Below, one piece after another: positions 1 through 58,662 of a DNA stretch of 61,115 nt; position 1 is the first letter of the stretch, and each line of letters starts with the position of its first letter. The stretch covers positions 1 to 61,115 of IMG/VR virus record IMGVR_UViG_3300017967_000022; one strand, given 5' to 3'. The notes below the pieces were generated by a model. That model was not told where the DNA came from. It was given only the letters and a program-made list of their open reading frames with translations, and made no database searches. Source of the DNA: a virus. A program made the position numbers and the translations under genes.

Positions 1-632
1 CCTCGTTTGTCGTCCCAAGCATCGGCATAGTTATGTGGGAAAGCATTACCAATATATGTAATGTTGCCTAGTGTTTGTCTTTTGTGAAAGTGTCCACTAA
101 ACACATATTCCTGATGTTTAAAATGATCTGCTTGTAGTTCGCCTGTGTCTGGCATTTGCACCATTGCATTCATATAAAAGTGCGGAAGTTCAAAGTGACC
201 AAACATATATTTGCTTTTAATTTTAGGAATTTGTTTCCATTCTTCGCCTACTAACCAAGGAACAAGTGTTGTGTCGCCTAGTGTAGTCATTTTATTGATA
301 ACTGTTATACCTTCTATATGATTAGCAAACTCTACAGAATGGATATCACGTTTGTCTTTGTAGTACAAATCGTGGTTACCTGGAAAATAAAAGAATTGTT
401 CAAATGCCTTTCCTAGTTTTTCTAACGAACGGATTGAATGATCCATTGTAATAATGTTAAGTGAATTTCGATTGTGATGCCAGTCACCCATAAAGATGCC
501 TGTTTCACAACCATTTGCTTTGGCTTGTTCAATATACCAATCAACAAACTCTTCACAATCTTCGTTGTGAACTTTAGAGTTAGATTTTAAGCCAAAATGG
601 ATATCAGTAAATACGGCGGCTTTTTTAAACAA
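1..632 (-). CDS. 47: gp47-like recombination nuclease subunit (SbcD/Mre11-type metallophosphoesterase), 3' end outside window
   Basis: Translating the minus strand gives a calcineurin-like metallophosphoesterase with its metal-ligand motifs in order: TDIHFG near the N-terminus (D-x-H), MGDW around residue 50, PGNHD around residue 85 and SGHFHKR around residue 185. This matches T4 gp47, which pairs with the gp46 ATPase as an Mre11/Rad50-like nuclease in recombination and host DNA degradation; that role is family knowledge. The start is a TTG at 632: an AGAGG sequence lies 8 nt upstream and an in-frame TAA sits two codons before it. The gene follows gp55 on the same strand after 44 nt. The reading frame is still open at base 1, so the C-terminus is missing. 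A different phosphoesterase is possible, but the T4-like setting favours gp47. Confidence 0.82.
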   Translation of the reverse strand, partial: MFKKAAVFTDIHFGLKSNSKVHNEDCEEFVDWYIEQAKANGCETGIFMGDWHHNRNSLNIITMDHSIRSLEKLGKAFEQFFYFPGNHDLYYKDKRDIHSVEFANHIEGITVINKMTTLGDTTLVPWLVGEEWKQIPKIKSKYMFGHFELPHFYMNAMVQMPDTGELQADHFKHQEYVFSGHFHKRQTLGNITYIGNAFPHNYADAWDDKR

Positions 633-676: not shown

Positions 677-1594
677 TCAATCATCGTTTGTGTTAGAATC
701 ATCGTCATCATCATCAACAGATTCCGGCGGATCCTCACTACGGTAAACGATTTTTGCACCATTACCTTCTTCAGCCATTTTCTTTCTTTGGTCTTCTATT
801 TGCCTTTCCCATTCGCCTTCCATTTGCCTTGTATAACTTGGAGTCATATCATTCATTTCTAAGATATCATCACGTATGTTTTGATTACGTTTTTCAATAT
901 TAATAACTCTTACAAAAGAATTGGTAACAGCCGCGGTATAGTACGCAAAAGGATTCTGCGATTTACTTTCATCAAACTGTAACCCGATTTGTGCAAGTTG
1001 TAGAATTGCCTGTCCACGCATTTCGTCATTGTAGGTGTAACCACGAACGTTACCTCTAGTTGCATAACGATCGCACAGTTTCATCCACATACGTGCTAAT
1101 TTTTCTGTTGCTGTTCCGGTTTTCCCATCAAAATATCCGTTTTCCATGCCACCCTTCCAGTGACTCTTTCCTACGCAAACAAGTTCGTCATTTTCGTCAA
1201 ACTTGTAGTGTTGGAATGGCGGAAAATTTAATTTTACTTTACGATCAGCAACACTCTTTGGATTCTTTTTGCGGCCTTTTTCATCTGGAATATGATCAAA
1301 TGTCATAATCCTAAAAATTAATTCTTCTTTGGTAATTTTAGTGTAAGGTATCTCGCAGTCTGCTTGTTTTACCTTTTCCCCTGCTTCCTTGCGTGTAGCA
1401 TAGGCTTCTTGCGATAAGCGTTTTGCTTTATTACGCTTTGCTTCAGCAATGGTTCTTACGTTAATTTTTTCTATACTAGGTAGTATAATGTCGTATTGAT
1501 TGTAAGAATCATCAACAAAACTGCAAAAACTAGACTTTGACTTGTGTATTTCAGCAAGTATGTCTTTGTTGTTCAAATAATTTACTTTTTTCAC
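677..1594 (-). CDS. 55: Late-transcription sigma factor, gp55-like
   Basis: The 305-residue product carries a sigma-like core at about residues 160-245, including GYTYNDEMRGQAI (186-198) and NPFAYYTAAVTNSFVR (214-229), then a basic stretch. These match T4 gp55, which recruits host RNA polymerase to TATAAATA late promoters with gp33 and the sliding clamp. It is longer than T4 gp55 (185 aa) because of a 160-residue N-terminal extension of unknown function. The C-terminus is strongly acidic (DDDDDD at 294-299). The start is GTG, with GGAG 7 nt upstream. A consensus sigma70 promoter lies directly upstream, so host polymerase can express it early. The many TAAATA boxes in this window are its expected targets. 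Confidence 0.85.
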   Translation of the reverse strand: MKKVNYLNNKDILAEIHKSKSSFCSFVDDSYNQYDIILPSIEKINVRTIAEAKRNKAKRLSQEAYATRKEAGEKVKQADCEIPYTKITKEELIFRIMTFDHIPDEKGRKKNPKSVADRKVKLNFPPFQHYKFDENDELVCVGKSHWKGGMENGYFDGKTGTATEKLARMWMKLCDRYATRGNVRGYTYNDEMRGQAILQLAQIGLQFDESKSQNPFAYYTAAVTNSFVRVINIEKRNQNIRDDILEMNDMTPSYTRQMEGEWERQIEDQRKKMAEEGNGAKIVYRSEDPPESVDDDDDDSNTNDD

Positions 1595-1618: not shown

Positions 1619-1647
1619 ATTATAATGTACTCTGATAATTTTGTCAA
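1619..1647 (-). promoter_or_regulatory. Consensus sigma70-type promoter for gp55 and gp47
   Basis: On the minus strand TTGACA (1647-1642) and TATAAT (1624-1619) are separated by exactly 17 nt, a perfect bacterial housekeeping promoter. It reads left into gp55, whose GTG is about 25 nt downstream of the -10 box. Its -35 box abuts the late promoter that reads right. Confidence 0.85.
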
Positions 1648-1653
1648 TAAATA
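1647..1653 (+). promoter_or_regulatory. T4-type late promoter (ATAAATA) for the baseplate operon
   Basis: ATAAATAC lies 25 nt before the ATG at 1679, in the divergent gap opposite the gp55 promoter. A GAGG follows at about 1662-1665, so this transcript would have an ordinary leader with a rather distant ribosome-binding site. Confidence 0.7.
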
Positions 1654-1678: not shown

Positions 1679-2557
1679 ATGGCAGATACATTCGACATTT
1701 TTAAAAAACCTATTTCAGGTGCTGGCTCCATCATTAATGATGGTAAAAAACTTGTGGCAGATATTGGCGAGTCTTTTAAAGATAACGCTAAAGGCTTTAT
1801 GAAAGCAATTCGTGCTCGAACTATTCCTACAGACGGCGAACCAGAAGAAGTTGAATTAGCGTCTGCACGTTGGTCAGCAGACCCAGAAGGAAAAGATTGG
1901 AGAGTCAAATTAAGTTTACCTCCTATTGACGCTTTTACAAAAAGCAAGATGATGACTAGACTTATTGAAACAGGCGGATTGGCTTTTCCATACACACCGA
2001 CTATTATTATGAGTCATCAAGCATCTTATAACGCATTAACACCTGTACATAGTAATTATCCGTTCTTTACGTACCAGAACTCAAGTGTGGATGCTATGAC
2101 ACTTACCGGACAGTTTATTGTTCAAAATGCTCTAGAAGGCGAGTATTGGATTGGAATGCTACACTATCTAAGATCAATAACTAAGATGTTTTATGGAGCC
2201 GGCGCTGATCAAGGTGCACCTCCACCAATTGTTAAGTTGAATGGTTATGGCGATTATGTTTTCAAAGATGTTCCTGTAATTATTACAAACTTTACTCTTG
2301 ATATGCCAACAGACGTTGACTATGTTGCTGTTAATATGGCGTTGATGGGATTAGCGGGAAATGATAGAAAGCAACAAGAGGACTTTGAACGCCAAGCACT
2401 AACAGAAGGATTTGGTCAAGAACTAGCATATGTTCCTGTTGACAGCACAGTAACAGTAACACTACAGCCAATCTACTCAAGAGACAAAGTAGAGAAATTT
2501 AGTTTAGGTGCATTTGCTAGAGGCGATTACCTAGGAACTGGAAAAGGATATATCTAA
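1679..2557 (+). CDS. Baseplate tail-tube cap/initiator protein, gp48/gp54-like
   Basis: This 292-residue protein contains AFPYTPTIIMSHQASYN (about 100-116), then LTGQFIVQNALEGEYWI (about 140-156), LHYLRSITKMFYG (about 160-172), and VPVIITNFTLDMPTDVDYV. That pattern is typical of T4 gp54/gp48 and their cyanophage relatives, which sit on top of the hub and start tail-tube polymerisation (family knowledge). The stop codon overlaps the ATG of gp53 (TAATG), so the two are translationally coupled. It is first in the structural operon behind a late promoter. I cannot separate gp48 from gp54 without alignment; only one of the pair is present here. Confidence 0.8.
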   Translation: MADTFDIFKKPISGAGSIINDGKKLVADIGESFKDNAKGFMKAIRARTIPTDGEPEEVELASARWSADPEGKDWRVKLSLPPIDAFTKSKMMTRLIETGGLAFPYTPTIIMSHQASYNALTPVHSNYPFFTYQNSSVDAMTLTGQFIVQNALEGEYWIGMLHYLRSITKMFYGAGADQGAPPPIVKLNGYGDYVFKDVPVIITNFTLDMPTDVDYVAVNMALMGLAGNDRKQQEDFERQALTEGFGQELAYVPVDSTVTVTLQPIYSRDKVEKFSLGAFARGDYLGTGKGYI

Positions 2558-2847
2558 TGCAAGAATCACCATGGGCAGATACAAGAATTTTTAACGGTGA
2601 GTTTCTTGACATATTGTCAATTAGACCCGTTCCTGAAGAGAGTGACGATATAAAATACGTAATCCAATCACAGTATCATCAACGTCCAGATTTGTTAGCC
2701 TATGATATGTATGGCACTCCAAAGTTATGGTGGGTGTATGCACAACGAAATATGGATGTTCTAAAAGATCCTGTTTATGATTTTAGATCAGGGCTGGAAA
2801 TTTTTGTTCCTAAGGGTAGCCAACTAAGAAAAATATTAGGAGCCTAG
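2557..2847 (+). CDS. 53: Baseplate wedge subunit gp53
   Basis: The short protein (96 residues) has the gp53 core YHQRPDLLAYDMYG followed by TPKLWWVYAQRN and DPVYDFRSGLEIFVPKGSQL, the last part resembling the LysM-like domain known in gp53. T4 gp53 (196 aa) is about twice as long; this form is reduced to the conserved core, as in related marine phages. In T4, gp53 joins wedges into the six-fold baseplate. It overlaps the upstream stop by one base and is 1 nt from the next gene, so it is clearly inside the baseplate operon. Confidence 0.85.
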   Translation: MQESPWADTRIFNGEFLDILSIRPVPEESDDIKYVIQSQYHQRPDLLAYDMYGTPKLWWVYAQRNMDVLKDPVYDFRSGLEIFVPKGSQLRKILGA

Positions 2848-6939: not shown

Positions 6940-6946
6940 ATAAATA
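6940..6946 (+). promoter_or_regulatory. Late promoter 5 nt before the gp25 start
   Basis: ATAAATA is followed by TTGAT and then the ATG at 6952. At T4 late promoters the last A of the box is about -6, which would put transcription start on the A of the ATG. No Shine-Dalgarno sequence precedes the gene. The spacing is seen; leaderless translation is inferred. Confidence 0.65.
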
Positions 6947-7398: not shown

Positions 7399-7425
7399 AA
7401 TTAAGTGTTCAGATAATTCAAACAA

Positions 7426-7432
7426 ATAAATA
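7426..7432 (+). promoter_or_regulatory. Late promoter upstream of gp6
   Basis: ATAAATAC lies 21 nt before the gp6 ATG, with the ribosome-binding sequence GAGGAAAG (7443-7450) in between. This is the leadered type of late promoter in this genome. Confidence 0.7.
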
Positions 7433-7453: not shown

Positions 7454-10400
7454 ATGTCAACAACTGATAGACAAAATAGGCTATTACTTGCAGAAGATTG
7501 GAAGCGAGTATACCAAACATTTAGAAACGCAGACTTTAAGTCATATGACTTTGACAGTCTACGTAGAACAATGATCAACTATCTAAGGGAAAATTATCCT
7601 GAAGATTTTAATGATTACATCGAATCCTCAGAATATCTTGCACTAATTGACCTTATTGCTTACCTCGGGCAAAACCTAGCGTTCAGAACAGATCTAAATG
7701 CAAGAGAAAATTTCCTTGAATTAGCAGAACGTAGAGAATCTGTGTTACGTTTAGCACGACTACTTTCCTATAATCCTAAGCGTAACCAGTCTGCTAACGG
7801 TTTATTAAAATTTGAATCAATTAGTACAACAGAAGATATTACAGATTCAAACGGTATTAATTTATCCGGCCAAACAATTATTTGGAATGATCCGAGTAAT
7901 CCTGAATGGCCAGAACAGTTCCGTAAAATCTTAAATTCTGCTTTACCTCAAAACGGTATTATTGGTAAACCAATTAAGAAAGAAATAATTAATGGCATTA
8001 CAACAGAACAATATAGATTTAATGCTTCAAATACAAACTTGCCAGTTTACAGTTTTAATAAAAACGTAGGCGAAAAGAATGTAACATTTGAAGTAACAAG
8101 TTGTTCAATTGATGCTGACAAAATTTATGAAGAAGATCCATTACCAGGAAATAGTTTTGCATTCTTATATAGAGAAGATGGCAAAGGTGCAGGATCATCT
8201 AACAGTGGATATTTTGCACATTTCCGTCAAGGTGTTTTAGATACTGGTGGATTTACAGTTAAGAATCCTACACCAAATCAAGCAGTGCAAATTGACACAA
8301 CTGGAATTAACAATAGTGACGTTTGGTTATACCAATTAGATTCTAATGGTAACGAACAAAACCTATGGACTAAAGTTGATGCAGTAGAAGGCAACAATGT
8401 TATCTACAATAGTTTAAGTAAAAATCAAAAAAACATTTACACAGTTTTAAGTAGAATTGACGATCGCATTACTTTATTATTTGCTGACGGTACATTTGGT
8501 GAAATGCCAAAAGGAACTTTTAGATGTTATTTTAGAAAAGGCTTAGGAAGTAAGATTACAGTTACTCCTGCAACAATGACTAACATTAATATTACTATTC
8601 CTTATGTTAGCAGAGCAGGCCAAGGCGAAACATTAAACATAACAATGGCATTAAAGTATACTGTTGATAATGCTAGTGCTACAGAAACAAGCACAAGTAT
8701 TAAACAGAATGCTCCTGCAACTTTCTATACACAAAATAGAATGATTACTGGCGAAGACTATCAAGTAGCACCGTTAAGTGTTAGCCAAGAAGTTGTTAAA
8801 GTTAAAGCAATAAACAGAACATCAAGTGGTATTAGTCGATACTTTGATCTAATTGATTCTACAGGAAAATATTCAAGCACAAATATATACGGTGATGATG
8901 GTGCAGTTTATCGTCAAATATTAGATAAAAAAATTAGTTTTAATTTTCAAACAAGAACTGATGTTGAAGGTGCAGTTATAAACGTAATTGAACCTACTCT
9001 AACAAACACTCTTGTACAAAACTTTTACCTAAGTCAATTTCCAAAAACATCAGCAGGCGACTTATCTGCAAGTTGGACACAAGTAGCAAGCCAAACTAAT
9101 AACTCTAGCGGTTACCTAACTGATAATGCTGATGTAAAATACACTGTTGGAACATTTACAGGTAGTACATTAAGATTTTTAGAACCAGGGTCTATTGTTA
9201 AATTTGTAGCACCTACAGGTTCACATTTTGATACTAGAGACAATAATGCTATTGTAACTGGTGATGCAAACTATCCAGGAGCAGTTACATATCTTTGGAC
9301 TAAAGTTATTCGTGTAAACGATGACGGAACAGAAAATACTGTAGATGGCGAAGGCGCAATCATCCTTAATGATATTATTCCGACAGGGGCAATTCTTAAT
9401 GAGATTAAACCTAAGTTTGCAACAAATTTAACAGCAAGTGTTATTTCACAAATGATTGAACAAATCTTTGCTTACAAAACATTTGGTTTACGCTATAGTT
9501 TAACTGATAGAGAATGGCGAGTAATTTTAAACAATAACCTTAATATTAGTAATGCGTTTAACATGGGTAAATCCGGTGATAACTCAAATCAAAATTTAGA
9601 TTCAAGTTGGTTACTGCTATTTGAAACTGACGGTGAAAAATATACTGTAACATACAGAGGTGTACGCTATATCTTTGAAAGTGACAAAGAGGTTAAGTTC
9701 TACTATGATGAAACAGATAAGATTTATGATAGTAAAACAGGAAAAATTATTAAAGACAAAATTAACATTATGTCAATTAACAAACAACCAGATAGTATTC
9801 AACCACTAACGGTTGACTACCCTTGGCAAGTTACAAAAGAGTATAGAGATGAAGAGAATTATGTAAACAGTAAAAAGGTTGAAGTAGGATTTTTTGATTC
9901 CGACTCTGATGGAATTATTGATAATCCGGATCTGTTTTTAGATTTTGTTGCTCCTAGCGTGAATCCAGCAGATAAATTTGTATTCTTAAAAGAAGAAATT
10001 TCTAATAACAAGTCAACAAACTTTAATTTAGTTAATCCTACTGCTTATAACATTATTGTAAGAACTAGTGAAACAGCAACAGGTCCTTTATCGGCGTACA
10101 ATGACGGTACAATTTTTTACTTTATGGATGCTGATGTGTTTAAGCAATATAGCGAAACAACATCATCGTTAACGTTAATTACAAACTATAAAGCATATGT
10201 TGGAAGAAGCGATATTAAATTCCAATATGTTCATAGTGCAGATGAAAATAATAGATTAGATCCAAGTAGTACTAACATGATAGACACATACTTGTTAACT
10301 AAAACATATGACAGAAACTTTAGAGAATACCTACGTGGTGTAACATCTAGTAAACCATTACCGCCAAGTAGCGATGAACTGTTTCAAAACTTTGGTCAAG

Positions 10401-10894
10401 ATATTAATAAGATTAAATCAATTAGTGACGAAGTAATTTATCATCCAGTTAAGTACAAAGTGTTATTTGGAGACAAAGCAGACGTTGATTTACAAGCAAC
10501 ATTTAAAGTTGTTAAGAACCCTGATATTGTAACAAATGACAATGATGTTAAGTTACGTTTAATTCAAGCAGTAAATGAATTCTTTAGTTTAGAATTTTGG
10601 GACTTTGGAGATAAGTTTAGTTTTTCAGAACTAGCAACATATATCATGACAAGTTTAACTCCAGATATACAAACTGTTGTTCTAGTTCCAAACCAAACCG
10701 GAAGAGCGTTTGGTAGTTTATATGAAATTACATCAGAAAATGACGAAATTTTTATTTCAGGTGCCACAGTTGATAACGTTGAAATTATTGACAGCGTTAC
10801 AGCATCAAGATTGAAAGCATCAGGTGCAGTAGTAACAAATGCTACAAGCGATAATGCTGGAATTCAATCATCTACTAATACTGGGGGAAGTTAA
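7454..10894 (+). CDS. 6: Baseplate wedge subunit gp6 (extended form)
   Basis: The N-terminus (DFDSLRRTMINYLRENYPED, about 34-53, then YLALIDLIAYLGQNLAFRTD and ENFLELAERRESVLRLARLL) is characteristic of gp6, the J-protein-like dimer that forms the inner baseplate ring. Downstream are GEDYQVAPLSVSQEVVKVKA around 431-450 and a C-terminal region with FFSLEFWDFGDKFSFSEL. At 1,146 residues it is much longer than T4 gp6 (660). Within the extension is DSDSDGIIDNPD (815-826), a good EF-hand/dockerin-like calcium loop. The gene has a strong ribosome-binding site and is followed 5 nt later by the giant gene, so the two are probably co-transcribed. Confidence 0.9.
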   Translation: MSTTDRQNRLLLAEDWKRVYQTFRNADFKSYDFDSLRRTMINYLRENYPEDFNDYIESSEYLALIDLIAYLGQNLAFRTDLNARENFLELAERRESVLRLARLLSYNPKRNQSANGLLKFESISTTEDITDSNGINLSGQTIIWNDPSNPEWPEQFRKILNSALPQNGIIGKPIKKEIINGITTEQYRFNASNTNLPVYSFNKNVGEKNVTFEVTSCSIDADKIYEEDPLPGNSFAFLYREDGKGAGSSNSGYFAHFRQGVLDTGGFTVKNPTPNQAVQIDTTGINNSDVWLYQLDSNGNEQNLWTKVDAVEGNNVIYNSLSKNQKNIYTVLSRIDDRITLLFADGTFGEMPKGTFRCYFRKGLGSKITVTPATMTNINITIPYVSRAGQGETLNITMALKYTVDNASATETSTSIKQNAPATFYTQNRMITGEDYQVAPLSVSQEVVKVKAINRTSSGISRYFDLIDSTGKYSSTNIYGDDGAVYRQILDKKISFNFQTRTDVEGAVINVIEPTLTNTLVQNFYLSQFPKTSAGDLSASWTQVASQTNNSSGYLTDNADVKYTVGTFTGSTLRFLEPGSIVKFVAPTGSHFDTRDNNAIVTGDANYPGAVTYLWTKVIRVNDDGTENTVDGEGAIILNDIIPTGAILNEIKPKFATNLTASVISQMIEQIFAYKTFGLRYSLTDREWRVILNNNLNISNAFNMGKSGDNSNQNLDSSWLLLFETDGEKYTVTYRGVRYIFESDKEVKFYYDETDKIYDSKTGKIIKDKINIMSINKQPDSIQPLTVDYPWQVTKEYRDEENYVNSKKVEVGFFDSDSDGIIDNPDLFLDFVAPSVNPADKFVFLKEEISNNKSTNFNLVNPTAYNIIVRTSETATGPLSAYNDGTIFYFMDADVFKQYSETTSSLTLITNYKAYVGRSDIKFQYVHSADENNRLDPSSTNMIDTYLLTKTYDRNFREYLRGVTSSKPLPPSSDELFQNFGQDINKIKSISDEVIYHPVKYKVLFGDKADVDLQATFKVVKNPDIVTNDNDVKLRLIQAVNEFFSLEFWDFGDKFSFSELATYIMTSLTPDIQTVVLVPNQTGRAFGSLYEITSENDEIFISGATVDNVEIIDSVTASRLKASGAVVTNATSDNAGIQSSTNTGGS

Positions 10895-10899
10895 AAGTA

Positions 10900-13800
10900 A
10901 TGGCTTTTGATAATGATCAAAACGAGTTTCCAATTGAATCTGGCAATGAAAAAGAAAACAGAACCAGTTTAAAGCACCTACCTCGTTACTTTAGAACACC
11001 AGCAAACAAAAAGTTTTTAACAAGCACACTTGACCAACTAATCCAACCAGGTGAAGTAGAAAAACTTAATTCCTATTACGGTAGACGTGATGCAAGAGCA
11101 CGTACAGCATCTGACAATTATGTTGATGATGTAAGCAAACAACGTGATGATTACCAACTAGAACCAGCCATTGTTATTAAAGACAATTTTGATAATATAG
11201 ATTTCTATAAAGACTATAATGACTATATTAATCAACTTCGTTCGTTTGGTAACACTAACAAAGATCATAGTAAAATTAATGCCCAAGAATATTATGCATG
11301 GAATCCGCATATTGATTGGGACAAGTTTACAAACTTCCGAGAGTACTATTGGTTACCAAATGGTCCACAAGTTTTACCTATATATGGTCAAAACAAAGAA
11401 ATAGTTTCAACTTTCAAAGTTACTATAGAGGAGAATGAAGACAATGTAGCATACAAATTCACGCCAAATGGTCTCACACAAAATCCTACTTTAAAACTTT
11501 ACAAAGGTCAAACTTACATCTTTGAAGTTGACACTCCGGGGTATCCTATTGCGTTTGCAACCAACAGAGCATTTACCCCAGGTCAAGCATTGATCACAGA
11601 GACTGTTGAAGGCGTTCTAGCACCAGGTAAGTTTGATGCTGAACTTTATGAAGCAGACGGGTACGACACTGGAGAATACATAGTACAACCAGTAGAAGGA
11701 GGTATCACTGGATTTACAGATGGAGAAAATATCTCTACGCTGTTTACAGATGGCGTAGAAGCCGCAACTGTTTATGTTGAAAAAGGTACTATTAAATTTA
11801 CAGTTCCTTTGGATGCACCAGACAAGTTGTTTTATATTAGCAAAGACGATGTTAACACAAGTGGTTTGATTACTATCTATAACATCGAAGAGAATACAGA
11901 AATTAATGTAGAAGAGGAGATTTTACAAAAGAAAACTTATCAGACACGTACTGATGTTGAACTATCAAATGGTATGCTTGTTGAATTTTTAGGTGATGTA
12001 ACTCCTACAAAATATAGTGAAGGGTTATGGTATGTTGAAGGAGTTGGTGATTCTATTAAACTAATCAATAAAGCAGACCTTGAAATTACTGGTCCTTACA
12101 GTGCAAACGTGTATGTACCATTTGATAGTGAAAACTTTGATAGACTTCCTTTTGGACAAGCATTAAACTATCCAAAGGATAAAGACTATATTACAATTAA
12201 CCGTGCGGCAATTGACGGAAACCAATGGTCAAGACATAATAGATGGTTCCATAGAGATGTTGTTGAAAGAGTTGCAAAAGCAAACGATACAGTAGTTGAT
12301 CTTGATCAAAGTGCAAGAGCAACAAGGCCTATTATTGAATTTGATCCAGGATTAAGATTATACAATTATGGATCTAAGTTTAAATCAAATGTTGACCTTG
12401 TTGATACCCAAACATATGATGTGTTTTCAACTATTGAAGGATCGATAGGTTATAATGTTGACGGTATAGATCTTGCAGAAGGTTTGCGTGTTTTATTTAC
12501 AGCAGACCCTGACCAACGTGTTAATGGTAGAATTTATAAAGTTACTTTTATTTCGTACAACGGACAAAGACAGATTGCATTAAAAGAAGAACCAGATACA
12601 GAGCCGTTGTTAGATGAAACTGTACTAGTTACATCAGGAGTTCAAAACCAAGGACAGATTTATTGGTTTAACGGAACTAAGTGGGTAAAAGCACAAGAAA
12701 AGACAAAATCAAACCAAGCACCGAAGTTTAACTTATATGATGCAGACGATATCTCGTTTGACACATATAATAGTAACACGTTTACTGGAACAAAAATATT
12801 TTCTTATAAACAAGGTACTGGTACAAATGACACAGTTTTAGGATTTCCATTAAGTTATAGAAATATTGAAAACAGTGGTGATATTGTTTTTAATTTTAAC
12901 TTACTAACAGACAAATTCACATACCAAGAAAATCAAAAAGATTACACACAACAAACAGACGTTGCAACTTTAAGAAAGTATACAGACTTAACAACATATG
13001 AAAATGTAAGTGGTTGGAAAACAGCATACCAAGAAAGCACACAAAAGGTTGTTAGACAATATATTGTTGAAGGTCAGCGTAATGACTTTGCTGTAGACGT
13101 TTATGACCGTAGTGGTGATCTTAATGAGTTAAATGTCAAGGTGTTTGTTAATAATGATAGACGCACTGATTGGGAACTTAATAGAGAGAACGGCGTTGCA
13201 TATGTTCATTTTACTTCTAATCTTGCAAATGGCGATATTTTAGTTTTACACTGTACTAGTGAAGCCGACAAGAACGAAAACGGAAAATACGAATTTCCTA
13301 TTAACTTACAAAATAATCCACTGAACGAAAATGTTGTTGATTTTACATATGGTGAAGTTAATGACCATGTTGCATCTATTATCGAAAATGTTAATAATTT
13401 CAGCGGCAAGTTTCCGGGTTTAAGCAATCTAAGAGATATTGGTGACTTATCAGAGTATGGTACTAAATTTGTACAACATAGTGGTGCTTTACCTCTTGCA
13501 ATGTATCATATTACTAACAAAAACTTTAATATTATTAAAGCACTTCGCTATGCAAGAAAAGAATATGCAAAGTTCAAACGTTCGTTTATTGATATTGCAA
13601 CGAACATTGGCATTGACGGAAATGCTAAAACAGTTGTAAACGAAATTATTAAACAATGGCAATCAGACAAATCTAAACAATCAGCATTTTATTGGACTGA
13701 CATGATAGGGTCGGGTGCTAATAAGACTAGAGAGTTCACTGTTGTTGATACCGGTAATAAATTTTACAGTTTAGAAACACCTTTTAATTTAGATACAATT

Positions 13801-16800
13801 TCTGCTAAAGCAGTTTACGTTTATCTAAATGATACTCAGTTGTTACACAATAGAGATTATACATTTACTAGTGAAGGATTTATTAAAATTACTGATAGTG
13901 TAGATCTACAACTAGAAGATACTATTTTAATATATGAATACGAGTCAACAGATGCTTCATATATTCCGCCTACTCCTACTAAATTAGGTTTATGGCCGTT
14001 ACATATACCAAGAAAGTTTGTTGATAATTCTTATCAAACACCGCAAACAGTGATTAAGGGTCACGATGGCAGTATTACAAAAGCATACGGCGATTACCGT
14101 GACGACCTTATTTTAGAATTAGAATTTAGAATCTATAATAATATTAAAGTAAAATATGATGTTAATATTCTTGATATTGATAGTTTTGTAGGACATAAAA
14201 ATAGAGATACAGGATTTACAAGACAAGATGTCAACGATATTATTATTACAGACTTTATTGAATGGTTATCAATTGCAGGTGATCCAGATTATTCTGCTGT
14301 AGATTTTTATGATAGAACAAATCAATTTACATGGAACTATTCTACTATGCAAGATCCAGATGGCAAAGCATTGCCTGGATTCTGGAGAGCAATTTATAAT
14401 GAATATCTAAGTACAGACACTCCTCATACAACACCTTGGAAAATTTTAGGTTATATTGAAATGCCAAGTTGGTGGGAAGAAGTTTACGGTCCGGCACCTT
14501 ATACAAATAATAATGCAATTCTTTGGGAAGACTTAGAAGCAGGCAGAGTTAGAGAACCTAATAAGCCTATTAGATATCGTCCTAACTATGCAAGAAAAGG
14601 TCTTTCTAAAACTATTCCTGTAGATGATAGAGGAAATCTAGTAAGTCCTTATGAAAGCGGTTATGCTAGAGGACTTATTGTTCCAGAAACAAATAAACAA
14701 TTTGTATTTGGCGACGAAGCACCTGTAGAAACTGCATGGCGTAGAGGTAGCGAATATCCGTTCTCTATACTAACAGCATGGTTAATACATCAACCTGCAA
14801 AACTTATTGGACTTGGATTTGATAGAGCAAGAATAATCAGAAACACAGCAAATCAAGTTGTATATTCTACTACTTCTAAACGAGTTACACCAAGTAGTAT
14901 TGTATTTCCAAACGGTACAGACGCAACAGTTAGAGTAACAACTGCTGGTCTTGTAAACTATTTGTTTAACTATATCAATGCTGATGTAACTAAACTAAAT
15001 GAAACTTATAGCGAAGAAGTAACTAATATTAAGTGTCAATTAGGTTTCAAGGTTGGCGGATTTACGCAAAAATCTAAATTTAAATTACTACTTGACAGTA
15101 GAACACCTAGCAATAAAGGTAATGTGTTTATTCCGGAAGAGAACTATGATATATTCTTTAATGTAAGTTCACCGGTTGAAACAGTTGCATACAGCGGTGT
15201 TATTGTTGAAAAAAGACCAAACGGTTATGTATTAAAAGGCTATGATAAAAGCAAACCTTATTTTACATACTTTAAACATTTAGAACGTGCGGCGGATCCT
15301 GTAATTAACATTGGTGGTGTAAGTGCAAACTTCTTAGAGTGGGTTCCGGGAGAAAGATACCAGAAAGGACAAATTGTTCGCAATGGAGATACTTTCTTCA
15401 GGGTACAAGTATCCGGAACGTTTGATTCATTTAATACTAATAACTTTGTTAAACTTGCTGAACTACCAATTGACGGTGGTGCAGAGGGAATACTAAGAAG
15501 AACATTTGAACTTGGTGAATCTAAGTTATTATATGGAACTCTGTTACCAACTAGACAAGATGTAATTGATTTCTTATTAGGTTATGGAAAATATTTAGAA
15601 AAACAAGGATTTTCCTTTGAGAATTTTAATCAAGAAATTGAAACTATTGAAAACTGGGAACTTAGTGCAAGAGAATTTTTATTCTGGACAACTCAAGCAT
15701 GGAATGACGGTTCATTAATTACACTGTCACCTAGTGCTATTAAATTGCAGTTTGCAAGAGATAATGCTATTGTAGATAATCTGTTTGACAACTTTTATGA
15801 TTATACATTGTTAAAAGCAGATGGTCGTAAGTTAAGAGAAGATTTTGCTAACACAATTAGAAGTAACAAAAACGAATTTGGCCTAACACTTAAAAATACA
15901 GCAGATGGCATTTATTTTGTTAAGTTACCGTTAGTACAAAAAGAACACGTTGTCCTTATTGACAACAAAACTGTTTTCAATGACGTAATTTATAATCCTG
16001 CTCCAGGATATAGACAAGCAAGGATTAAAGTTCTAGGTTATAGAAGCACCGGCTGGAACGGAAGTTTTGATATTCCAGGTTTTACATATGATAACGTTGT
16101 AATTAAAGACTGGGAGCCTAATACAGATTATGCTATTGCAACAGTAGTTAAACACAAAACATTCTATTACAGTGCCAAGTATAAAATTCCTGGCACAACA
16201 GATTTCAATGACGAAGACTGGATTAGACTACCAGAAGAACCTAAGTCATACATGATTCCAAACTTTGATTATAAAGCAAATCAGTTTGCTGACTTTTATG
16301 ATTTAGATACATCAAACTTTGATAGTGAGCAACAAAAGTTTGCCCAACATTTAATTGGTTATCAAAATAGAACATATTTAGAAAACGTTATTAATGATGA
16401 TGTATCTCAGTATAAGTTTTATCAAGGAATGATTCAAGACAAGGGAACAAAGAATAGTTTAATTAAGTTCTTTGATGCACTTTCGAATACTGATAAATCA
16501 AGTTTAGAATTCTTTGAAGAGTGGGCATTTAAAGTAGGTCAATATGGCGCAAGTGAAGGATTTGATGAAGTAGAATTTAAGATTAACGAAGCAGATCTTA
16601 GACTACAACCACAACCATTCCAGTTGGTTAATCAAATTGATCCATTAGCAACTGACTTAGTTTATAGATATATTCCAAGTGATGTTTATAGCAAACCCAC
16701 AAACTATAATCATGCACCGTTTCCTACTAAAACTTTAGACGAATCTAAGACTTATATTAAAACAGCAGGTTATGTAACAGAAGACGATATTGATTTTAAA

Positions 16801-19800
16801 GTTACTAATTACGATGATATCTTAGATCTAGATGTTAAATCTATTTCAGTGGGACAATATATTTGGGTTGCTAAACGTTTCCAAACATTTGATGTATTGC
16901 GTCAAAGTGAAACAGATCTTAAAGTAACTAAAATTATTAATTCAGACAGTTCGCAATCTATTGAGATTACAACTAGAAAAACTCCTAAGTTAGAAAAAGA
17001 CGACATTATAGGTGTTCTAGGAACAACACCAAGTACTAATAGATTCTATAAAGTTAAACGTGTTAGTTTGAATACAATTTATGCTGAGACTTCGGGCGAA
17101 ATTGAAGATGCAGAAGAAACAAGCGGATTTATTGTGCGACTTGAAAGTGTTAGAGTGCCTAACTTGTCTAACATTAATGAGAAAGTAACAAGAAATAATT
17201 ACACACCCAATGAAAAGATTTGGATTGACTCAGACGAAAACGGAAGTTGGTCTGTAATTCAAAATTCTAATTCATACAGTGTACAAAAACAATCTTTTAA
17301 TGCAACTTTAGCCGGAGTATTAGGAACAGACGAAAGAGGTTTTGGTACTAGCATTAGTGCAAACGAAATTAATTCGATCGTGGCTATTGGTGCTCCCGGA
17401 GTTACCCTTCCAGGAAGAGTTGATTTACACTTTAGAGCATCTGAGAATTTGCCTCTAGTGTTATCTCAAGAACTAGATTGTCCACCTAACTTATTCACAG
17501 GCGAGGAAAGTTTCGGTCAGTCTACAGCAGTTACTACTGACGGTAAGTTTATATTCGTTGGTATTCCATATGCATCAAATGCAAAAACTAATTACAAAGG
17601 TAATTTTAATCCTGGAGCAACATACGAAGACGGATCTATTGTAAAATATACAAATCAATTTTGGAGAGCAAAAGCAACAGTAGAACCTGAAGATCCAAGT
17701 TTAGATTTTAATAGTTTTAGTTCCCATGTAGAACAACAAGTTACTACATATGACGGTGAAAACTACGATGACTTCTATTTTATTCTTAGAGGTAATCATA
17801 CATTTGTTGAGGATTTAGCAGACCACGTATTAATTAGAGCACCTAAATTACAATACGACGGAACACAAATCGGTGACACATTACATTTAAAATGGAATGA
17901 CAAAAATACACGGTATCCTTCAGGAGTACAGCCGTTTAATGGTAATCAAACTCTAAGCGGAGATTTCTTTACAGGCGAACATTTAATTACTGAAAAAGTT
18001 GACGACATTTTATTAATCGACAATACACAGGCAATACCGAGTGTAAATGAAACTGTGTCTAGTGATGTTGCAGTGGGTAAAGTTGCGTATGCTTATACAA
18101 CAGGTGATAATCGAACTATTATATACCTTAAAGAAACTAACGGTGACTTTGCAAACACAGGAACATTAGAACTTGGGGATATTGTCGTTGGTGATTACGA
18201 AAGACCCGTACAACAAGATGACCCAGCATTTGGTGGTTGGTGGAGAATTGATGTAGGATCATCGTTTGTATCAACTATAACAATTGAATCAAAACCATTT
18301 TTAGTTATAAAAGACATTGTTACAGCAAGTCAACCTAGAACACCGAACTCGTATGCAAACACATATGATAGTGTTGATGACTTACTTGATCCAGGTGTTC
18401 CGTCTTATATTGAAACATTAACCTTTAATGGAGATTCTGGTTTTGAGATCTCTGACAGATGGGCGTTTAGATTACCTAAATCAATTGAAACAGATTTTGC
18501 AGTTGGCGATACATTTAAATTCTGGTTTAACGAATTAAGAGGACTAGACAATAGTTTACAACAACCTACAGTTTTAAGTCCCGAACTAACATTTGCTTAT
18601 CTAAACAGAACAGATCATGTTGTTGATGACATTTGGAATGGTTGGATTGAAATTAATCTTACTAACTTTGATAACAGCGGATCACCGACTGAAGGCGACC
18701 AAGATTATAACCCTAATTATGGTAATCCATATATTCCTGTTGTAGGAGATATTGTTAGAGATAATGATACACTAGCAACAGCAGAAGTTACATATGTTGA
18801 AAAGGTGTTTAACGATTTAAGACTATGGCTTAAAAATGTTTCAGGAACCTTTAAGAAGGGAAGCGAATTCGGTAATATCTCAAGTATTAGTATTGTTGAA
18901 GGTTCACAAGGTGCAGGAGTCATTAGACTTGTAGGTACAACTAAAGCACGTTACTTTAACAGTAACAGCCTAGGACCGATTATTGTAGTAAACAGAGGTG
19001 AAAACCTAACTGTAGGTACTGCTAGAACTTTACAAAACTTTGAATATTGGGTTTATAAGACAGATATATTACAAGGTATTCCACGTAGTGCAAATCCGCC
19101 TTCGGCAACAAATAATGATTGGGCTCGTGTTTATAATGTTACCGCTACTTCAGTGGGAACAGCAAGTAATTACACACGTCAAGGTGCAGTTGCAATTTAT
19201 GAAAAGAATAACAGTAATTTTTATAATTTGTTAGAAGTTTTAATTACTCCTGATGCAGATAACTACAGACATTTTGGTAGCAAAATTGATCTAGTTACAA
19301 ATGCAGACGGAACATATTCTGCTTATATTTCAAGCAGAGGAAACAGCACGTTTGTTCAACCAGGACGAATTAACACATACAATTATAGTAGTTCAAAAGG
19401 TTGGGTATTAGGTGTTGATGAAAATTATAGAGGTGATTTTAATACTACAGTTTCTTATTTTGAAGGAGAGTACACAAAATATGCTGATAAGATTTATCAA
19501 GCCAATACTAACTTAATCCCCGGAGCATTTGACTCAAATGATTGGACAGAAATTCAAACAGGTGTAGACCTCAACGGATTTATTCCTAACAATACTGGAT
19601 TTATTGTTGGGGAAGATAGTGCTATTGATTCGACAAACTTATATGAGTTTGGCGTAAACTACGATGTAAGTGATAATGGTCAAGTATTAGCAACTATTGT
19701 AAAATATGGAGATACAATTGATAGTTCCATTGCTACACCTAAATTAGCAATATACAGAAAGTTAAACGGACATTTCTTGTTTGATCAATTAATTGATGCT

Positions 19801-22800
19801 CCAAATGCTGGAATCGGTTTTGGTGAGTGTGTAAGTGTTTCTAAAAATGGAAGATGGGTTGTTGTTGGTGCACCTAGATATAGTGAAGAATATACCAACC
19901 AAGGCGCTGTTTTTGTTTATCAATCAATCAATGGTAGATTCCAACAAGTTCAAATATTAACTGGTCCGAAAGGCTTATCTAATGAGAAGTTTGGATCAAC
20001 AGTTGTATACGATACAGACAGATTAGTTATTAGTTCTGCAGGCGGTGATTTAACAAGTGTAACAGAGTTTGACGACAATACCACTGTATTTGATAATGGA
20101 ACAACTTTGTTTAACACAACATTAACTGATACTGGAGAAGTGTTTGTATTTGAATTAACTGGTGATAGATATGTTTACGGCGACAAATTAGAATTATCTG
20201 ATCCGAGAGCATTATATTTTGGTAAGATTCTTTATGCTAAAGGAAATCACATATATGCAGGACTTCCTAGTTATGTAAGAGCAGAAACTACAGTTCCTGG
20301 CAGTGTAATTGATTTTAGATCAAGTCCAAATGCAAGATTGTGGGAAAAGATTAGACAAGATAGACAGGTTGTAGATCTAGACAAGTTTAAGGGTATTCTT
20401 CTTTATGACGAAACTACTAAACAAACAGATGAATATATTGACTTTATTGATCCATTACAAGGAAAAATTGCAGGTCCTGCAGAAGTTGAATTATCGTTTA
20501 AAACAACATACGACCCTGCATCATATAATGTTGCGACAACAAATGCTGTTGTTAAAGACGCAACAACATACAATACTACTAACTTAGTTGGAAAATTATG
20601 GTGGGACATTGATGCTGTTAGATTTATTAATCCTTATGCAAATACAGGAAGTATCTTTAGCGTAAGTAACACCTTTAACACAGTTTTCCCAGGAACAGAA
20701 GTAGAAATTTATGAATGGGTAGAAACAGAACTAACACCTGAGCAATGGGACGAACAAGCAGATTCCGAAGAAGGATTAACACAAGGAATCAGCGGCAAGT
20801 CTAAGTATGGAATGGAAGCATATTCAACTAGACGTGTTTATGACGAACCAGCACAAAAGTTTACAACTTATAATTATTTCTGGGTAAGAAATAAAGTTAC
20901 AGTGCCAAATGTTCCTGGAAGAACATTAAGCGCCGCAAGTGTACAACAATTAATCAGTAATCCTTCCGGTGCTGGATATAAGTTTGCTACAATGTTGAAA
21001 AACAACGAGTGGACACTACATAATTTACAAAGTTCTATTAAAGGTGACAGTACTATTCTTAAATTTAGTTACTGGACAATTCCATACACAGATAGAAACG
21101 TCCATAACCAATATAGGATTCTTACAGATGGTTTAGAAACTAGCAGACCTAAGTCAGATTTAGAACTTAAATGGTTTGACAGTTTAATTGGTTTTGACGG
21201 CCAAGGCCGTGAAGTTCCAGATAGATTCCTAAGTCTTAAAGACAAATACGGTATTTTGAATAATCCAAGACAAGGAATGTTTGTAAACAGAATTGAAGCA
21301 TTAAAGCAGTTTATTGAAAGAGTAAACTCTGTAATGTTAAAATACATTTTAATTGATGAATTTGATTTATCACCATTAACATCTAGTGATCCTAAACCAA
21401 CACTAGCATCAAGAAGATATGATCTTGAAATCGACTCTGAAAAAGAATTAGATTATGTTTCAGTAGGTAAAGTTCAACCTGCTGTACTAAGTGCAACAAT
21501 TCAAGACGGCAGAGTTTTACGAGTTGATATTATTAGTAGTGGTAGAGGATATAAAACAGTACCTACAGTAGAACTTGTATCTGCAACTGGCGAGGGTGCT
21601 GATATTAGATTAACTATTAATAATGTTGGTGCTGTAACAGAAGCAGAAGTTATTAATCAAGGACAAAATTATCTTCAAACAGATAGAATTTCAGTAAGGA
21701 AATTTACAGTCTTAGTAACATCAGATTCAACATATTCTAACAGATGGTCTTTATATGAATATGTAGGAGGAACTATTCCTTGGAACAGAATTGTAAGTCA
21801 AAGTTTCGACGTAGATCCTTATTGGTATTATACTGATTGGTATGCAGAAAATTGGAATGCACTTACAAAAACAGACTTTGTAATTGATAATCCTTACGAA
21901 CTAGAATCAATAAATGATACTTTTGGTGATATTGTTAAGATTAATAATGTTGGATCGGGCGGTTGGTTAATGTTGCGTAAAATAGATGATCAACCTAATG
22001 TTGATTATACTGTTAACTATCAAACAATTGGTAGAGAAAATGCAACTATTCAATTTAGTAAAGCATTATATGATTTTAGTGAAGACCTAGTTGGTTATGA
22101 TTCGTTTGGTTATGACGATAGTGCGTTTGATTTAATACCTGTACAAGAATTAAGAATTATCCTTCAAACTATTAGAGATAATATTTTTATTGATAATCTA
22201 GCAATTCATTATAACGAATTGTTCTTTGCTCAAATGCGTTATGTTTTAACTGAGCAAAACTTTGTTGATTGGATGTTTAAAACAAGTTTCATCAAGGCAA
22301 AACATAATGTTGGAAAGTTAAGAAAAGATATTACATTTAACAATGACTGGTTACCAAGTTATGAAGCATACGTTGAAGAAGTTAAACCTTACAAAACTAA
22401 GATTAGAGAATACCTATCAACATACGAAAGTTTGGAAGAAACAGGTACTACTGTAACTGACTTTGATCTTGCACCATTTTACAGTGATGTTAAAGGAAGA
22501 ATTATTCCAAGAACTGAAAAAGTAATTGATGATACTATTCAAGGAACAGCAATTACTGATTACCCTGCTAAACATTGGTTAGATAATGCAAGTTTCAAGA
22601 TTAAAGATATCGACATTGCTGATGCAGGCAGTGGCTACGAAAATGCTCCAGGTGTTGAATTTGTCGGCGGCGGTGGATCAGGAGCAAAAGCAATAGCATA
22701 TGTTGGCGGCGGAAAAATTACTGAAATTAAAATTACAAATCCAGGAACAGGTTATTTAAGTGCTCCAGAGATTATTCTAAATGGCAGTGTTGCAGATGGC

Positions 22801-33068: not shown

Positions 33069-33075
33069 GTAAATA
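33069..33075 (+). promoter_or_regulatory. Late promoter 5 nt before the ATG at 33081
   Basis: GTAAATA is followed by TTGCT and the ATG, the same geometry as at gp25. No Shine-Dalgarno sequence is present in the short gap. It is the likely start of transcription for the first modification-gene block. Confidence 0.6.
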
Positions 33076-40643: not shown

Positions 40644-41316
40644 ATGAAACCCTTCCAGGCCAGTGTTTTAAAATTAAATCTTCTAAATCAAGATTACTCA
40701 TTCTAGAATTTTCACCTTTGATTTGTTGTACGATTATCTCCATTTCATTACACCAGTCTTTAGTTGTTTGTTTTAGTGTATATCCGAGGTACGGATAAAT
40801 TGTATTTTCTACATAACGCATATGTTCTAATATACTTGGGTGCGAGTCGGTAACATAAACGTTTTTTGTTCTAGGAAATACGTTTTCAGCACCTGGCAAA
40901 TTTTCATCAACTTTATCTTTGTGTCCTTGAAATAAATCTACATGAAAAGATTTTAAGTATGCATTTGTTTGCAATATTGCTGTTTTGTTTCTAATTATAT
41001 CGTTTTCTTCACTCCAGTGGTTACTTAGATATTCGTCGCTGTAATAGTCACTGTTTAAAATATTACCTTCAGTTACCCATTTGCCTTCTTTAAGTAAATC
41101 AACTCTTTGCCAACTGCTCCATAAAATACAAACAAGATCATTTTGATTAAAATTATGTTTTTCATTTGCTTCTATAGTGCGGCAAGCAATACCTTGATTG
41201 CCCATGCCTGCTTTTGCATAATTATGATTTTCGCAGTCTAAATCTTTTGCAATTATATCACTCCATGTCGGCCAAATGTATTCGGTGTACGAACATCCAA
41301 AGGTAAACAATCTCAT
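40636..41316 (-). CDS. SGNH/GDSL-like hydrolase (first copy)
   Basis: The start MRLFTFGCSYTEYIWPTW holds the nucleophile-type Ser9 in GCSYT. AKAGMGNQG around 34-42 supplies the GxGN-like block, and VTDSHPSILEHMRYVEN around 153-169 supplies the D-x-H pair. This is the SGNH hydrolase arrangement seen in surface-sugar loci, where the enzymes remove or transfer acyl groups. The second copy is at 44073-44891. Strong GGAGG upstream of the ATG and a 4-nt overlap with the aminotransferase gene (ATGA) show co-translation. The substrate is unknown. Confidence 0.7.
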   Translation of the reverse strand: MRLFTFGCSYTEYIWPTWSDIIAKDLDCENHNYAKAGMGNQGIACRTIEANEKHNFNQNDLVCILWSSWQRVDLLKEGKWVTEGNILNSDYYSDEYLSNHWSEENDIIRNKTAILQTNAYLKSFHVDLFQGHKDKVDENLPGAENVFPRTKNVYVTDSHPSILEHMRYVENTIYPYLGYTLKQTTKDWCNEMEIIVQQIKGENSRMSNLDLEDLILKHWPGRVSYV

Positions 41317-41897
41317 TTAAAAACCTCCATGTCTGGCAAGTAAGGATAGTCTTGACTAGTCCATAATTTACCGGTTTCTAAATCTTTAATTTTTTCTAAT
41401 CCTAGTTGTGCAGTTTCAGGAGTCATGTAATAATGATATCCAATGTATTTGATATTTTGTTCTGCCCAAGGTTTGTCATCTGTTCTTCCGTCATATGCCA
41501 TTTGTTTTAATGTTTCATAATCGCGTTCATTAGAACAAAGTATAGCACCGCCTCTACCTAAACTTAGTGCTTTCTTGTATTGGAAACTTAAACACATAAA
41601 AGAGTTATTAACATAAGAATCTTTTTCAAATAGTGTTGCGGCATCGATAATATTAGTGCCGCCTAAGTTATATGCTTTACTCCATTCAACATCTGCAAAC
41701 TCCCACGCAAGACCGAGTTTCTCAAGTGTGAACGGGATACTAATATATGTTCGACTAGGTATAGTAATTTTGTGTGTTGGATTCAAATAACGTAAGCATA
41801 ATTCAATAGCATGGGTACAACTATCAACAGCAACAGCATATGGAGCACCATAATACTCTGCTATTGCTTTTTCAAATTTTTTCACAGTTTCAAACAT
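41313..41897 (-). CDS. DegT/DnrJ/EryC1-type sugar aminotransferase, shortened
   Basis: FEKAIAEYYGAPYAVAVDSC near the N-terminus, TIPSRTYISIPFTLEKLGLA, NIIDAATLFEK and CLSFQYKKALSLGRGGAILC are the successive signatures of PLP-dependent DegT-family aminotransferases. The PLP lysine should be one of the two Lys in FQYKKALS. The protein stops at 194 residues, versus about 370 normally, so the small C-terminal domain is missing. An in-frame ATG at 41903 overlaps the TATAAATA box, so I chose the ATG at 41897, exactly 5 nt after the box. It is the first gene of the five-gene operon. It may still make an amino sugar, or may need a partner. Confidence 0.72.
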   Translation of the reverse strand: MFETVKKFEKAIAEYYGAPYAVAVDSCTHAIELCLRYLNPTHKITIPSRTYISIPFTLEKLGLAWEFADVEWSKAYNLGGTNIIDAATLFEKDSYVNNSFMCLSFQYKKALSLGRGGAILCSNERDYETLKQMAYDGRTDDKPWAEQNIKYIGYHYYMTPETAQLGLEKIKDLETGKLWTSQDYPYLPDMEVFK

Positions 41898-41902
41898 ATA
41901 CA

Positions 41903-41910
41903 TATTTATA
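41903..41910 (-). promoter_or_regulatory. Perfect TATAAATA late promoter for the five-gene minus operon
   Basis: On the minus strand TATAAATA is followed by TGTAT and the ATG at 41897, i.e. 5 nt of spacing, with no Shine-Dalgarno sequence. It lies in a 35-nt gap between two divergent operons. Confidence 0.75.
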
Positions 41911-41920
41911 TACGCAGATA

Positions 41921-41927
41921 ATAAGTA
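41921..41927 (+). promoter_or_regulatory. Degenerate late promoter (ATAAGTA) for the ten-gene plus operon
   Basis: ATAAGTA followed by TAATT and the GTG at 41933 repeats the 5-nt geometry with one mismatch. No better candidate lies in the gap, and no Shine-Dalgarno sequence is present. Confidence 0.45.
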
Positions 41928-41932
41928 TAATT

Positions 41933-42892
41933 GTGAGTGAGTTTGAGAAAATAATCAATTTAGTGTTATGGCATAGGTCCTGGAGTCTTGAAAGGCTTTT
42001 GAGCACAATCCAAAATAACACCGATAGTCTTATACGAGTATTAGGTGCAGAAGAATTTGCAATTATGGGTTGGGACAGTCCAGAAAATTCCAATCTGTTG
42101 CAAGAAATTAAACAAGCCATTAGTAATAGTTCAAACACTGTAGAATTTGTGTGTGGAGGGTTTCCTACCGATAAAGTTTTCCATCCAGGTAACAACGTTG
42201 TCTATTGGAAGACTTTTTGGCCTGTAAAAACTTATTATGAACTAACAAGATTTGGGCATACTGCAAACAATAAAGATTTTACACAGGCGTATGTATCATT
42301 AAACAACAAGCCGTGGCAACACAGATGTCAAATGATGGATATGCTTTCTCGAGAAAATTTGTTACCTTATGGTGCAATTAGTTGGAATGAAACAAATAAA
42401 GATTATCCTTTTAAACATTGGAAGCAGAAACGATTAATCATTGACTCAGAATATGCAAAAACAACAGAACAATATGGATCATTTCCGCAGGCCTTTTTTC
42501 AAAGTTTTATGAGTTTAGTTAATGAGTCTACTATGGACACAATATTTCCAACTGAAAAAACATACACACCAATTTATTTTAAAAAACCTTTTTTAGTTTG
42601 GAGTGTACCTGGCTTTCATAAAGCATTAACAGAACACGGTTTTGAATTATATGACGAAATTTTTGATTACAGTTTTGACAATATCTTAGATGACCAACTA
42701 AGATTACAAAAACTTGTCGAACAGGTTAAGAAAATTACAAATTTGGATTATAATGAGTTATATAAAAAGGTTGCAAAAAAAGCAGAAAGAAACTATAATA
42801 TACTAGTGTCTATTAGTCAAGACAAAAGTTTAGTACCAAACAGTGTTTTAAAGTTTGGCGGTTACGAGAATTTAATTAAGGAGATGAAATGA
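41933..42892 (+). CDS. Glycosyltransferase-like protein, first gene of the ten-gene operon
   Basis: I start the gene at the GTG 41933 (VSEFEKIINLVLWHRSW); an upstream frame from 41840 would run through the divergent promoters and the opposing gene. The C-terminal third has TMDTIFPTEKTYTPIYFKKP, FLVWSVPGFHKALTEHGFEL, and a coiled-coil-like end, LVEQVKKITNLDYNELYKKV. This is the same domain as in the gene at 38058-39191, so the two operons each contain one member. GWDSPENSNLLQEIKQAISN near the N-terminus is not recognised. Glycosyltransferase function is inferred from the C-terminal domain and the context. The stop overlaps the dehydrogenase start (ATGA). Confidence 0.6.
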   Translation: MSEFEKIINLVLWHRSWSLERLLSTIQNNTDSLIRVLGAEEFAIMGWDSPENSNLLQEIKQAISNSSNTVEFVCGGFPTDKVFHPGNNVVYWKTFWPVKTYYELTRFGHTANNKDFTQAYVSLNNKPWQHRCQMMDMLSRENLLPYGAISWNETNKDYPFKHWKQKRLIIDSEYAKTTEQYGSFPQAFFQSFMSLVNESTMDTIFPTEKTYTPIYFKKPFLVWSVPGFHKALTEHGFELYDEIFDYSFDNILDDQLRLQKLVEQVKKITNLDYNELYKKVAKKAERNYNILVSISQDKSLVPNSVLKFGGYENLIKEMK

Positions 42893-58629: not shown

Positions 58630-58634
58630 AAGTA

Positions 58635-58642
58635 TATTTATA
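58635..58642 (-). promoter_or_regulatory. Perfect TATAAATA late promoter for rSAM 9
   Basis: TATAAATA on the minus strand is followed by TACTT and the ATG at 58629. Again the spacing is 5 nt and no Shine-Dalgarno sequence is present. Confidence 0.75.
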
Positions 58643-58662
58643 GAATAAGTGCGTACTTAATT

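Follow-up and report, generated by a model that had tools for sequence, protein, structure and literature searches.

An early host-type promoter of a gp55-type late sigma factor gene overlaps a divergent late promoter in a clade of uncultured T4-related phages, forming a plausible early-to-late switch

Introduction

Late promoters of bacteriophage T4 are described, in the excerpt of PMC2988020 used here, as placing the late box roughly one helical turn before the start and having no upstream or -35 element; initial binding by gp55-polymerase is poorly selective, and activated late complexes extend further upstream. For phage CBB, the available section of PMC5259590 reports ATAAATA in 35 places, before structural genes. 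It also describes a second promoter class, of the TGAAACG type, which precedes both DNA-synthesis genes and gp55. Early and late promoters are also brought together in one short region in phage phi29, where protein p4 switches A2b/A2c-A3 (PMC3100819, in excerpt). Plasmid pLS20 offers a further parallel, as its divergent promoters Pr and Pc overlap and carry an operator in the overlap (PMC4207663, in excerpt).

The locus described here lies in a complete virus record of 61,115 bases (one strand, positions 1-61,115; hereafter, the window), in which a gp55-type gene diverges from a baseplate operon. As in T4 (PMC2988020, in excerpt), a single TATA-type box would be read by a small sigma2-type factor, and the predicted fold of the window's gp55 matches that of the T4 protein (7d7c). 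Two differences stand out, namely, a palindrome that precedes some late boxes at a set distance, where the T4 excerpt describes no upstream element, and a gp55 of 305 aa compared with 185 aa for the T4 chain. CBB and GAP32 likewise carry gp55 divergent from baseplate genes and ATAAATA before structural genes, but their -35 is of the TGAAACG type rather than TTGACA and their late box lies a few base pairs away with no common base; promoter overlap is not discussed in the section of PMC5259590 available. Unlike in phi29, the repressed promoter here would make the late sigma factor itself, and only an operator-like element is seen. To our knowledge, the phi29 switch involves no sigma exchange. 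The pLS20 system differs in that it controls plasmid conjugation through one repressor/activator and DNA looping, and not a phage early/late sigma change (PMC4207663, in excerpt). No overlap of a gp55 promoter with a late promoter, and no palindrome at these late promoters, was found in the titles and abstract openings of the papers listed by literature searches, nor did a search of passages of PMC3037559 yield anything on either.

Results

A gp55-type gene diverges from a late operon

The gene at 677..1594 (minus strand, GTG start) was assigned to the gp55-type family by sequence match (phrog_12791, E 4.8e-79; phrog_234, E 3e-22) and by a profile match to T4 gp55 chain 7d7c_F (E 2.7e-8). Its product is predicted to adopt a sigma domain-2 fold like that of T4 gp55: the model (mean pLDDT 83) aligns best to 7d7c_F, from the gp55-polymerase open complex (Z 13.1, rmsd 3.5, 123 aligned; Foldseek E 2.2e-3). 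Among the matches listed, fold similarity covers sigma regions 1.2 and 2, and since the sigma matches span residues 1-235 with about 97 aligned, the additional residues probably form an insert that separates these two regions (about residues 22-160). A sigma region 4 within gp55 might conceivably read an upstream element; the fold matches listed cover regions 1.2 and 2. The C-terminus (residues 279-305), where a sliding-clamp-binding epitope would be expected, is acidic and modeled with low confidence. Searches for gp33 and gp45 with PF16805 and PF09116 were silent in 7/7 large contigs, as were their controls.

To the left of gp55, the next ORF of the same operon (3..632, minus strand) runs off the contig end; it had no match in a Pfam search, and its label as gp47/SbcD-like is positional, given because relatives have SbcD-like genes beside gp55. 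Directly upstream of this ORF stands a second host-type promoter, TTGACA-17-TACTAT (680-652, minus strand), whose spacer contains an inverted repeat. To the right, a late operon opens with a gene for a virion structural protein (1679..2557, plus strand, phrog_12050), followed by a baseplate wedge subunit gene (2557..2847, plus strand, phrog_7145). The preliminary description had placed a late sigma factor gene and a baseplate operon on these two sides, as these assignments bear out. Elsewhere, the window also holds a single ORF of 4954 aa (10900-25764).

Host and late promoter boxes meet at one base

Between the two operons, the -35 hexamer TTGACA (1642..1647, minus strand; TGTCAA on the plus strand), a 17-nt spacer (1625-1641) and the -10 hexamer TATAAT (1619..1624, minus strand; ATTATA on the plus strand) match the sigma70 consensus at 12/12 positions (1647-1619), which makes the host promoter as perfect as had been claimed. 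The late box ATAAATA follows on the plus strand at 1647..1653. Base 1647 belongs to both TGTCAA and ATAAATA, so the reported meeting of -35 and late box is an actual sharing of one base. Start sites are expected near 1612 for the host promoter (minus strand) and near 1660 for the late promoter (plus strand).

The late box, too, proved real. ATAAATA occurs 9 times in the window against 34 expected, and 9/9 copies lie directly upstream (0-26 nt) of an ORF start on the same strand, a position shared by 1/5 copies of CTAAATA, 2/9 of GTAAATA and 0/11 of TTAAATA. Across 421 kb comprising the window and relatives, 50 of the 81 boxes near starts read ATAAATA and 14 CTAAATA, from totals of 80 (A), 87 (C), 84 (G) and 130 (T) for all NTAAATA. 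The T4-type arrangement of [T]ATAAATA shortly upstream of late genes is thus present. Some boxes are followed by an ATG after only 5-6 nt (6940-6946 and 56669-56675, plus strand; 58641-58635 and 41909-41903, minus strand), as is a GTAAATA at 33069-33075 (plus strand). At such a distance the transcript would begin at or beside the start codon, and leaderless late mRNAs are possible; in the 421 kb, 12/64 [A/C]TAAATA boxes near starts are separated from the start codon by 4-6 nt, whereas 16-28 nt is usual for the others.

The host promoter by itself is only mildly unusual: TTGACA-N15-19-TATAAT occurs once in the window where 0.17 were expected from shuffles, but 16/100 shuffled windows contained at least one. 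A chance origin was therefore undecidable from the window alone, and it was the relatives that ruled it out.

The overlap is rigidly conserved in relatives

We fetched relatives by gp55 protein similarity alone and kept the best 80 of 597 confirmed loci, the close relatives all being uncultured contigs. In 79/80, TATTTA lies 0 or 1 bp from TTGAC-N18-TATAAT, and the remaining locus begins inside gp55 and hence has no junction DNA. After this locus (L005) and a 73-residue match (L378) were left out, 53 unique junctions showed a gap of 0 (16 junctions) or 1 bp (37 junctions) and no other value. Unlike the gap, the distances from TATAAT to gp55 and from the late box to the baseplate gene vary across these junctions, with the caveat that start choice was crude and small TATAAT-to-gp55 distances may reflect wrong starts. 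Neither leader is long, with 16-28 nt in most cases.

A scan of the virus collection for the composite pattern (gap 0-1), blind to gp55, returned at least 120 stretches. Of the 120 listed, 80 were at gp55|baseplate junctions, a class that required either gp55 no more than 200 nt downstream or a baseplate gene on the opposite flank; 73 had both, and the other 40 stretches had neither. With the gap widened to 2-31 bp, only 2/120 listed stretches were at a gp55 gene, and each of these two encodes a distant homologue (36% and 47% identity). Likewise, seven large relatives hold 37 TTGAC-N17-19-TATAAT sites in total, and a late box abuts the gp55 promoter in 7/7 contigs but none of the other host-type promoters (0/30). 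At gp55 identities of at least 60%, 100/101 loci carry the overlap, in a set that includes pattern-selected loci. Parsimony on a gp55 tree (86 proteins) places five changes of gap state, between 0 and 1 bp only, and well-supported branches force just two; this tree and the 60%-identity count draw, among stored blind-scan loci, on L087-L166 only. Because of this conservation the arrangement exceeds chance, and comparison of these sequences confirms both that the early/late overlap is not accidental and that the observation is stronger than originally claimed.

An operator-like palindrome lies in the host spacer and recurs at other late promoters

A third element, absent from the preliminary description, occupies the host spacer. 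The spacer sequence is markedly non-random: relatives share a consensus, CTACGCAGTTAAT on the late strand, and its inferred counterpart in the window, at 1622..1638 (plus strand), is degenerate. The element is flanked by the host -35 and -10 hexamers and, counted from the inferred late start, covers about -38 to -22. It recurs upstream of another baseplate gene, gp6, which lies about 6 kb from the gp55 junction (ORF 7454-10894, phrog_10646), whose late box ATAAATA lies at 7426..7432 (plus strand) and is preceded by a weak copy of the element at 7400..7416 (plus strand). In relatives, the gp6-promoter consensus reads ATTAAGTACGCACTTAA, a 10-bp linker and TAAATA, the latter present in 67/67 unique gp6 upstream regions.

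A position weight matrix made only from gp55-junction host spacers was run on these 67 unique gp6 promoters. Its best match fell at -22 in 53, -27 in 11, -21 in 1, -26 in 1 and elsewhere in 1, where -27 is the mirror image, produced when the palindrome is matched in the opposite orientation. The equivalent place was thus hit exactly in 64/67 promoters and within 1 bp in 66/67. A host promoter on the opposite strand was found in 0/67 of them. The window's own copies are poor: the gp55 spacer profile gives the one at the gp55 junction 11.7 bits, less than the maximum of any of ten random sequences, and the gp6 copy scores 3.5 bits, the lowest of 67. The top site of the gp55 spacer profile in the window, at 41921 (18.7 bits), was exceeded by one of ten random sequences.

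Over the 421 kb, a gp6-derived profile gave 31 rows of at least 15 bits against 1 in shuffles, rows that include double registers of one site as well as the gp6 and gp55 sites themselves. All but one of these sites adjoin a late box, and the genes behind them comprise gp6, the gp55-divergent operon, the baseplate hub (phrog_150), the tail tube and radical-SAM proteins. Two further sites in the window lie at 41905..41921 (18.3 bits), overlapping the late box 41909-41903 (minus strand), and at 58645..58661 (24.0 bits), between divergent radical-SAM genes. The region 41313-59958 encodes a DegT-type aminotransferase along with several radical-SAM/SPASM proteins, and late boxes that have palindrome sites precede some of these genes. 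The offset is fixed at gp6 and gp55-junction promoters, and most other late boxes have no palindrome at that offset. Late boxes of these two promoter groups in relatives thus depart from the T4 type in having an upstream element.

Several readings of the spacer element were discarded. Its conservation is not a general early-promoter trait, as the spacers of other TTGAC-TATAAT promoters in seven large contigs differ on reading, and it is not a gp55-only feature, as it recurs at gp6 and other promoters. MerR-type promoters have a 19-nt spacer, and the 17 nt found here do not fit such a site. Operators of gp55 and gp6 from the same contig (31 pairs) are alike at 6.10/9 core positions compared with 5.35/9 when permuted (0/5000 as high), a comparison made without correction for kinship, so that the likeness may be caused by relatedness alone. 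Host boxes, a putative operator and a late box are superimposed at the gp55 junction.

Other gp55 phages keep the two promoters apart

In Paride, PA5oct, Atu_ph07, Vibrio 2.275.O, GAP32, CBB, 121Q, RaK2, Munch and XaC1, annotation shows gp55 diverging from baseplate or virion genes, and in Phosso and SCTP-2 gene position does; cyanophage S-H38 has gp55 co-directional with its neighbours. In PA5oct-like uncultured phages (L331-L377), the late box lies exactly 36 nt from TTGAC in 27/43 unique junctions; the others show other gaps (10), no host promoter (4, with the 73-residue match L378 still counted) or no box within 60 nt (2). This 36-nt spacing forms a second rigid layout. The late box is 3-5 bp from a poor -35 in RaK2, 121Q and Munch and close to a non-TTGACA promoter in CBB and GAP32. 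Atu_ph07 carries TATTTAGTTGACA without a TATAAT at 17, and no host/late promoter pair was found at the Phosso junction. Inspection by eye found no palindrome element at the GAP32, CBB, 121Q, Munch and RaK2 junctions. In the distant relatives L353 and L363, a palindrome-like element was seen by eye beside the late box, with the host promoter 41-45 nt off. Since distant jumbo phages keep the promoters apart, the overlap is a clade trait and not a requirement; judging from the genomes compared, full overlap is confined to one clade.

Discussion

Two polymerases and a candidate regulator may compete for the junction

A sigma70-polymerase footprint typically extends from -55 to +20. Such footprints put both enzymes on about 1625-1667, and the two should exclude each other. 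The interference geometry proposed in the preliminary description is in keeping with this layout, which makes joint occupancy by two polymerases very unlikely and is strongly conserved in the clade. Mutual exclusion of sigma70- and gp55-polymerase is our best reading of the junction. Early in infection, host sigma70-polymerase would bind TTGACA-17-TATAAT and transcribe gp55 from about 1612 (minus strand), its footprint covering the opposite-strand late box and keeping the baseplate promoter closed. Once accumulated, gp55 would let gp55-polymerase open the late promoter at ATAAATA (start about 1660, plus strand), and the footprint of this enzyme over the host -35 and spacer would compete with new gp55 synthesis. 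Strong occlusion by gp55-polymerase is nevertheless uncertain, because initial binding of the T4 enzyme is given as poorly selective (PMC2988020, in excerpt). The logic is also dispensable for gp55 programmes in general, as PA5oct-like relatives have no overlap.

The spacer palindrome could add a further layer. A site between the host -35 and -10 is a classic repressor position, and a dimeric regulator bound there, on an element common to the gp6 late promoter, would hinder use of the host promoter as well as adjusting late-promoter activity. Because the element also belongs to the gp6 late promoter, such a DNA-binding protein may either act as the true switch or work alongside polymerase exclusion, of which it is the main rival. 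A fused early/late switch combining exclusion of the two polymerases with an operator-binding regulator at the gp55|baseplate junction has, in our estimation, an even chance of being correct; that the junction acts as a switch at all is plausible. We put forward more tentatively a three-way junction, where sigma70, a palindrome-binding phage regulator and the late sigma factor would compete for the same 35 bp, the machinery made by the late sigma factor would silence its gene, and a tail/baseplate sub-regulon marked by the 16-bp palindrome would be switched along.

Possibly, though with less likelihood than the fused switch, the putative dimeric palindrome-binding protein is itself the switch, blocking sigma70 at gp55 and regulating tail/baseplate late promoters, with polymerase competition secondary. 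The excess of palindrome rows over shuffles, nearly all beside a late box and preceding gp6, baseplate hub, tail tube and radical-SAM genes, speaks for such a protein, as do offsets that vary from -30 to +4, which would suit a repressor, and the same-contig likeness of gp55 and gp6 operators. Kinship could produce that likeness, however, and the five junctions inspected by eye in GAP32, CBB, 121Q, Munch and RaK2 show no such element. An unlikely reading is that two independent promoters are merely packed on common DNA through a short gap, with no regulatory consequence. Phage genomes are compact, both leaders are short, distant relatives function without overlap, and the close spacing could be inherited compactness; yet flank lengths vary while the overlap stays constant, and the share of gp55 junctions among the matches listed falls from 80/120 at gaps of 0-1 to 2/120 at gaps of 2-31. 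That TATTTA is a mere AT-rich upstream element of the host promoter is highly improbable, for although it stands where an UP element would begin, none of the 30 other host-type promoters has it there and the same box precedes ORFs in the window and gp6 in all unique upstream regions.

Implications for T4-related phages

The junction bears on how T4-related phages outside E. coli limit their late sigma factor and time late transcription. A rigid and widely conserved overlap of a sigma-gene promoter with a late promoter would represent a compact feedback design that is testable on a short DNA fragment. A fixed upstream palindrome would break the T4 rule of late promoters made of a -10 box only, and it marks a tail/baseplate sub-regulon with a putative regulator to find. 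The start of gp55 and that of a late virion gene stand back to back on 35 bases, and their joint use is probably impossible. If the overlap does block joint use, it would provide a built-in early-to-late switch across a large set of uncultured phages related to T4.
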